Origin: Phycisphaerae bacterium
GTDB lineage: Bacteria > Planctomycetota > Phycisphaerae > Phycisphaerales > UBA1924
DNA length: 64,000 nt
Direction of reading: 5' to 3'
Assembly (NCBI GenBank): GCA_016793805.1
Contig: JAEUIZ010000028.1
Location: 62,001-126,000 of the forward strand
Shown here piece after piece: positions 10,432 to 13,857 of this stretch (position 1 is its first letter; each line of letters opens with the position of its first letter). The notes below the pieces were generated by a model that did not search any database, was not told the DNA's origin, and saw only the letters and a list, made by a program, of their open reading frames with translations. The position numbers and the translations under genes were made by a program.

Positions 10432-10459
10432 TTGCACTTTCTCTATCCTGGTGTATGTT
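10432..10459 (+). promoter_or_regulatory. Promoter of the pyroglutamyl-peptidase-like gene
   Basis: TTGCAC (10432-10437) and TATGTT (10454-10459) with a 16-nt spacer lie just before a leader of about 40 nt. An AGGAGG ribosome site at 10496-10501 follows, 6 nt ahead of ATG 10508. Confidence 0.55.
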
Positions 10460-10507: not shown

Positions 10508-11340
10508 ATGCGTCGAGCGGTTGTCGCCGGTTCGGTGATTGGTCTTGCGAGCTCGGCGCGAGCGGCGCGTACACCAACAACATCATGATCACCGGCTACT
10601 GGCCCCCGACCAACGAGATGGTCCGGCGATTCAGCACCAACGCCACCCAGAACCCGCTTGGATGGATCGGGAGCAACTGGGAAGGCCGGGGGTACAACAT
10701 CCACTCGTTCTTCCCCGAGTTCCCCGGGGGCGTGGGGACCAATCCGCAGGGCAACGGGGACTTCGAGGTCGATTATCAGGACACCTCGGCGGATTGGTGG
10801 CGGATCACGGCCGAGGTCAAGCCCGTGGCGATCATCACCTTCAGCCGCGGGGCCAACGGCTCGAACTGGGAGGTCGAGTATCGCACGAAGAACCGGGCGC
10901 AGTGGGTCAATGACTACACGGCCCCGTTCCAGCCCACGCCCTCGCCGCCCGATTCCTCCGTCCCCGCCGAGTCGATCCGTTTCTCGACGCTCCCGATGCA
11001 GAACATCGTGAACAACGTGAACGCCGCGGGGCTGGGCGTGAGCGCGTTCATCGACACCAACTCGTCGAACCTGGCGGGCGGGTTCCTGTCGGAGTTCATC
11101 GGGTACCACGGGAGTTGGTACCAGTCGATCCACGCGGACCCGAGCGATCCGGCGTGGAGCGTGGCGGCGGGGCACATCCACGTCGGGATCAACACCCCGC
11201 AGGCCGCGGCCGAGCAGGCGACGCTCATCACGCTTCGCACGCTCATCGACCACGTGAACACGATCGTGCCCTCGCCGGGCGCGGGGACGCTGGCGCTGGG
11301 CGGACTGGCGCTGGGCTCGACGCGACGGCGACGGAGGTGA
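10508..11340 (+). CDS. Secreted C15 (pyroglutamyl peptidase)-like protein with sorting tail, frameshifted
   Basis: AGGAGG plus ATG 10508 start a typical signal peptide (MRRAVVAGSVIGLASSARA), but this frame stops at TGA 10586-10588. The mature protein continues in the next frame from about GAYTNNIMITGYWPPTN to 11340. A one-base loss somewhere in 10545-10580 explains both. The body resembles pyrrolidone carboxyl peptidase: IMITGY, the Glu segment NWEVEYRTKNR, the helix LPMQNIVNNVNAAGLGVSAF, then AGGFLSEF where the family has AG-x-x-VCN, and AGHIHVG with the catalytic His. The nucleophile Cys is therefore Ser (codon 11089-11091). The end is VPSPGAGTLALGGLALGS plus an Arg tail. The gene is broken, or the sequence has an error. 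The C15 call is from motif reading only. Confidence 0.6.
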
Positions 11341-13045: not shown

Positions 13046-13753
13046 TCAGTTCGATCGCCGACGACGCGTTGCCAGCACGGTGAGCCCGACCATCATCACC
13101 CCCGCCCCCGGCGTGGGCACGAGGTTGTCGCGGACCCACTCGATGCCGTGGTCGACCTCGTGCTCGGGCATCCCGTGGTTGAGCACGATCCAGTACGGCA
13201 GCGAGCCGCCGACCCCGGGCGTGTCGGTCCAGGCGTCGAGTTCGAGGAGGTACAGGCCCGGCGTGGTCCCGTTGAGCGTCGTGTCGAATCGGAACTCGGC
13301 GCTCCCGCCGGGCACCTCGAGCGCGGGACCAAGGATCGGCGTCATCGGGTCCATCATCGGCGTGGTCACGCCCGGCTGCCCCGCGGCCGAGAGCGTGAGC
13401 GTCAGCAGCGAGAGCCCGAGGAAGTCGTTCCCGTTCCAGACTCGGGCCGCACGGCGGACGCGCACGCCGACCAGATGCCCGATCAGCGGCGAGGGATCGT
13501 CGGCGAGGTAACTCGGCTCGTCACTGATAATCCCCAGGCGGGTGTCGAAGAAGTCCGCGGGAAAGACCCGCTCCTGCGACAGGATCACCGGCGGGAACGC
13601 CTCGGCGAGGTGCGTGCTGAGCAGCCCGGACTCGACGCGAAGGCCGATCGAGGCGTCGTGAGCCAAGGCCGGCCCGGCAACCGGGCACCCGAGAGCCAGC
13701 GCGGCCAAGGCCGGCCGCCACGGACGGCGCGCACGATCTGCGTCGTGGTTCAT
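13046..13753 (-). CDS. Secreted protein with PEP-CTERM-like tail
   Basis: 235 aa from ATG 13753. The upstream in-frame ATG at 13837 would add 28 residues ahead of the signal sequence and looks unlikely. A basic n-region and hydrophobic core (WRPALAALALGCPVAGPALA) give a signal peptide with cleavage near AHDAS. The body carries predicted beta strands (GVRVRRAARVWNGNDFLGL, GLYLLELDAWTDTPG) and His-rich MPEHEVDHGIEW. The C-terminus is VPTPGAGVMMVGLTVLATRRRRSN, the sorting-tail type seen elsewhere here. All-beta composition and absence of charged clusters suggest an extracellular or surface role. It is convergent with lpdA, 21 nt apart. Confidence 0.75.
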   Translation of the reverse strand: MNHDADRARRPWRPALAALALGCPVAGPALAHDASIGLRVESGLLSTHLAEAFPPVILSQERVFPADFFDTRLGIISDEPSYLADDPSPLIGHLVGVRVRRAARVWNGNDFLGLSLLTLTLSAAGQPGVTTPMMDPMTPILGPALEVPGGSAEFRFDTTLNGTTPGLYLLELDAWTDTPGVGGSLPYWIVLNHGMPEHEVDHGIEWVRDNLVPTPGAGVMMVGLTVLATRRRRSN

Positions 13754-13857
13754 CCTCACAACATGCACCACGATTCGTGAGTTGGCAAGACGTGCACACA
13801 AAAATGTGCTTCGAGCCGCGGGCCGTGATTCTGGCAAGGCGTGGCATCACCACCCGG

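Follow-up and report, generated by a model that had tools for sequence, protein, structure and literature searches.

The closest described relative of the protein studied here is pyroglutamyl peptidase I (MEROPS family C15; Pfam PF01470). C15 is the sole family of clan CF and has a Glu, Cys, His triad, according to a 2025 review (PMC12445089). Exchange of a catalytic Cys for Ser usually costs much activity (PMC4576821). For TEV protease, the cost is ~10^4-fold, and activity was later restored by directed evolution (PMC4576821). An evolutionary switch between Cys and Ser nucleophiles is known for the PA clan (PMC4576821). Note that the PA clan, to which both the chymotrypsin-like Ser proteases and Cys enzymes such as TEV protease belong, has a different fold and the switch is between families. 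How a nucleophile can change without a dead intermediate is an open question, approached mainly by directed evolution (PMC4576821, PMC6642262). Our own literature search for natural Ser/Cys exchange, within the same family, also found mainly work on TEV. Within the literature searched, no paper joined pyroglutamyl peptidase with PEP-CTERM, and the match for pyroglutamyl peptidase with Planctomycetes concerns polymorphic toxin systems.

We analysed a 64,000-nucleotide stretch of DNA from a Phycisphaerae bacterium (contig JAEUIZ010000028.1, positions 62,001 to 126,000), which we refer to as the window. An initial annotation described a secreted, C15-like protein with Ser in place of the catalytic Cys. 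All features of this protein are on the forward strand. An AlphaFold model of the domain (model residues 1-232, window positions 10570-11265) has a pLDDT of 92.3 and a pTM of 0.88. Using the model as a query, Foldseek placed C15 enzymes at each of ranks 1-34 (best E 1.4e-11). Similarly, VIA-align matched the model to C15 with Z 23.0 (rmsd 2.2, 188 residues), while the next-best folds, a nucleosidase and a phosphorylase, reached Z 12.4. Hence, C15 stands alone at the top of both structural comparisons and, judged from the model, the fold assignment is firm. Searches with the single sequence gave scores below the cut-offs of PF01470 (14.4 bits, cut-off 22.7) and NCBIfam TIGR00504 (about 19.3-20 bits, cut-off 201.75), and a weak C15 match in the PDB (E 0.13). 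When a profile of 79 relatives was compared with solved structures, the first 18 matches were all C15 (best E 1.3e-4). In this alignment, the Ser, Glu and His columns of the family match the catalytic Cys, Glu and His of C15. The three positions aligned in the same way when hhalign was used to compare the family with five C15 sequences taken from related genomes (probability 96, E 4.7e-9, 123 columns). The host genome is a draft (~83% completeness, 59 contigs), in which a search for a canonical C15 gene found none.

The three residues named in the initial annotation are all encoded where expected. Thus, Glu103 (10876-10878) is the counterpart of the catalytic Glu, Ser174 (codon TCG, 11089-11091) replaces the catalytic Cys, and His204 (11179-11181) is the counterpart of the catalytic His. 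A second histidine, His202 (11173-11175), shares a predicted strand, formed by residues 199-205, with His204. Since the two residues are on one strand, two apart, both side chains should point the same way, towards the active site. The pocket motif of canonical C15 enzymes, TGFEPF, has the near-invariant counterpart TGYWPP (10591-10608); taking the motif alignment as ungapped, 73 of 81 members have Pro at the second Phe position. Other invariant residues are specific to the family. These are Asp68, Gln70, Asp75 and Trp100, with Asp-Tyr-Gln at residues 68-70 (10771-10779) found in 124/124 filled rows. In summary, C15 and the new family have in common the fold, the Glu-nucleophile-His order with its motif context, and an S-T/S-LP motif. 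Conversely, the family has mostly Ser for Cys, GHIHVG for GFIHVP and TGYWPP for TGFEPF, is apparently exported, and carries sorting-type or dockerin-like tails. Because the window protein lacks the Cys and the canonical pocket motif, and scores below the Pfam and NCBIfam cut-offs, we do not class it with the C15 pyroglutamyl peptidases. We place it in a sister family that has the C15 fold and probably works like a C15 peptidase, but with Ser.

Note that the window copy cannot be read as one frame between positions 10508 and 11340, as initially annotated. This span is 833 bases, which is not divisible by three, and it crosses a frameshift. The ATG at 10508 is in frame 2 and gives the signal-peptide-like sequence MRRAVVAGSVIGLASSARAA (10508-10567). 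The domain, beginning YTNNIMITGYWPPTNEM, starts at 10570 in frame 1. Hence, a single frame from the ATG through the domain was ruled out. The long frame 1 runs from a TTG at 10432 to the stop codon at 11340, and holds NWEVEYRTKNR, AGGFLSEF and AGHIHVG, which contain Glu103, Ser174 and His204, respectively. We also considered the TTG as an in-frame start for an exported protein and rejected it, since it yields no signal-peptide-like sequence. L002, the closest relative at 79% identity, has signal peptide and domain in a single frame. The mismatch in the window, set against the continuous frame in L002, indicates an indel within a GCG-rich stretch near 10555-10570, where either one base is missing or two are extra. 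The data are compatible both with an assembly error and with a real lesion in the cell. In the latter case, the window copy could be a decaying gene whose export has been abolished by the frameshift, as the differing frames of signal peptide and domain might suggest. This would be compatible with a Ser hydrolase in the wider family. We consider decay unlikely. The domain frame is open over its 256 codons, GC3 is 0.94, and dN/dS against L002 is ~0.13. Moreover, with a draft genome and a GCG-rich junction, an indel in the assembly is at least as likely. The domain frame of the window copy is coding and constrained, beyond chance.

The proposed signal peptide is supported by relatives, which have an in-frame counterpart at the same place, although in the window copy it lies in the other frame. 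The C-terminal tail, PSPGAGTLALGGLALGSTRRRRR, extends with the stop codon from 11266 to 11340. It has a hydrophobic stretch followed by RRRRR and resembles PEP-CTERM and MYXO-CTERM tails; the shape fits the sorting type, but the score against TIGR03901 (15.4 bits) is below the cut-off of 20. Similar tails occur in relatives. Across the family, C-terminal ends comprise hydrophobic-plus-arginine tails, dockerin/EF-hand-like ends, and longer modules. By a crude heuristic rule, rather than a trained predictor, 94 of 124 members have a signal-peptide-like start upstream of the domain. Given these starts, and the sorting-type or dockerin-like ends of relatives, export is likely across the family. 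A second exported-looking protein is encoded elsewhere in the window, on the minus strand (13046-13837), and ends with the same type of tail, a hydrophobic stretch and arginines (VPTPGAGVMMVGLTVLATRRRRSN). With regard to gene context, we searched around the loci for a neighbour common to the whole family and found none. One apparent cluster, at 27 loci, proved on inspection to be chained spurious frames, mostly antisense. A gene for a membrane-protein-like product is a common neighbour in one small subclade only (L026, L046, L050, L058, L064 and L068).

The initial annotation had left open whether relatives conserve Ser or keep Cys. A first genome scan identified 126 relatives, which record titles assign to Planctomycetota, Neomarinimicrobiota, Cloacimonadota and CSSED10-310; later searches added more. 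In two cases the copies are Phycisphaerales-like, and the title or bin may be wrong: L018 (QWIH01000019.1, titled Leptolyngbya sp. PLA1) and L004 (JACDEQ010000203.1, titled Armatimonadetes). Conservation was counted in 125 members, from several phyla, that remained after removal of duplicates. Both Glu and His are present in 125/125. The nucleophile column contains Ser in 102 members and Cys in 23, and never another residue such as Ala, Gly or Thr. Hence, Cys is not the rule. The first 80 loci, together with the window, have Ser 70 times and Cys 11 times; the codons at the 80 loci are 66 TCN, 3 AGC and 11 TGY.

Every Ser member has His at position 202 (102/102, in GHIHV) and none has Phe. For Cys members, Phe occurs in 16 of 23 (GFIHV) and His in 7. 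Phe is also found two residues before the catalytic His in canonical C15 and in the C15 outgroup. From the modelled geometry, we infer that His202 may aid the Ser nucleophile.

A tree was calculated, with these trait columns excluded, and rooted using C15 rows as the outgroup. Cys lineages with Phe diverge first, and a clade with 99 support contains His202 and every Ser row. Inside this clade are L014, L017, L039 and L132, which have Cys and His. Four further Cys rows (L036, L071, L044 and L056) are nested among Ser rows on starred branches, and two of the four have Phe again. On this rooted tree, Cys is the ancestral state and Ser derived, with the usual caveat that long branches to the outgroup can mislead. 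The Ser label requires 4 changes on the tree, 2 of them forced by starred branches. An AU test did not reject a single Ser clade (p 0.088 with the outgroup and 0.097 without). Since this is compatible with one origin of Ser, we grade repeated switching, including returns from Ser to Cys, as probable only. Two other proteins, L107 (G201) and L184 (G998), have C15 motifs, apparent export, and Cys with GFIHV, but the tree places both outside the family, nearer canonical C15. L107, with AGSYLCEF and GFIHV, may connect canonical C15 with the Ser/Cys family. In L184, the Cys-type C15-like domain is part of a longer protein, downstream of a region with an Ig-like or cadherin-like look.

We compared the nucleophile with the respiratory gene content of hosts. 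A heme-copper oxidase gene (PF00115) was present in 60 of the 80 genomes searched, and one duplicate genome was dropped to leave 79 hosts for comparison. Oxidase genes were found in 53/56 Ser hosts and 6/23 Cys hosts (Fisher p ~1e-9, a test that ignores kinship). Divided by class, the counts are 2/16 for Cys with Phe, 4/7 for Cys with His, and 53/56 for Ser with His. Within Planctomycetota alone, 45/47 Ser hosts and 6/13 Cys hosts have the gene (p 1.3e-4, Fisher, again ignoring kinship). Tests that respect kinship on the tree yielded 2 to 4 pairs, too few for significance, and missing COX1 may reflect incompleteness of draft genomes. The Ser form thus occurs mostly in hosts with oxygen-respiration genes, a pattern suggesting that the reactive group has been swapped in nature. 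As a cause, oxidation of the thiol in a secreted enzyme is a reasonable hypothesis: in aerobic surroundings, damage to a thiol nucleophile would favour Ser.

Our preferred reading, to which we assign a probability of about 0.64, is that an exported hydrolase family has arisen from C15-fold cysteine peptidases, with Ser174-His204-Glu103 replacing Cys-His-Glu in most members. In the putative reaction, Ser174 would be activated by His204 and Glu103, and attack a carbonyl group, of an amide or an ester, giving an acyl-enzyme. His202 would have arisen before the swap and made Ser workable. The changed pocket motif makes pyroglutamate doubtful as the substrate, and an extracellular peptide with an N-terminal block or modification is the likely candidate.

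The initial annotation had offered either a Ser nucleophile or a non-catalytic binding protein on the C15 fold, and both the structural match and the predominance of Ser among relatives support its interpretation. Were Ser members binding proteins, the C15 fold would hold a ligand and Ser, at a site without activity, would contact it through its hydroxyl. The pocket change from TGFEPF to TGYWPP fits such a role, the invariant Trp100, Asp68, Gln70 and Asp75 suggest another ligand, and the lack of a family-wide neighbour in our search is in keeping with it. However, dead enzymes usually drop triad residues, but here the Glu and His never vary, and Ala, Gly and Thr are absent from the nucleophile column. 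In addition, the probable returns from Ser to Cys are hard to account for without catalysis. Given this constancy of Glu and His, and a nucleophile that is only ever Ser or Cys, a Ser nucleophile appears the better of the two options, and we regard a binding role as improbable. A different objection is that the enzymes are active, but that 'peptidase' is the wrong class. A Ser nucleophile with His and an acid is known from esterases and acyltransferases, and the pocket motif is unlike that of C15. Nevertheless, every one of the closest described relatives is an omega peptidase, and we regard it as improbable that Ser members act as transferases or esterases.

The hydrolase reading extends, more tentatively, to the history of the family. 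It is conceivable, though we would not put this at even odds, that Cys and Ser have exchanged naturally and reversibly in one peptidase-fold family, the change being prepared by His202 and driven by the exposure of a secreted enzyme to oxygen. The order would be Cys with Phe, Cys with His, then Ser with His, with returns in oxygen-poor lineages. Counter to an oxygen-driven swap, 4/7 members with Cys and His202 are in oxidase-bearing hosts. We know of no earlier Ser-type group in clan CF, and this family would be the first. Unlike in the PA clan, Ser and Cys forms sit within one C15-fold family. The family hence supplies living members on both sides of the exchange, together with apparent intermediates having Cys and His202, in related hosts and with a plausible selective cause.
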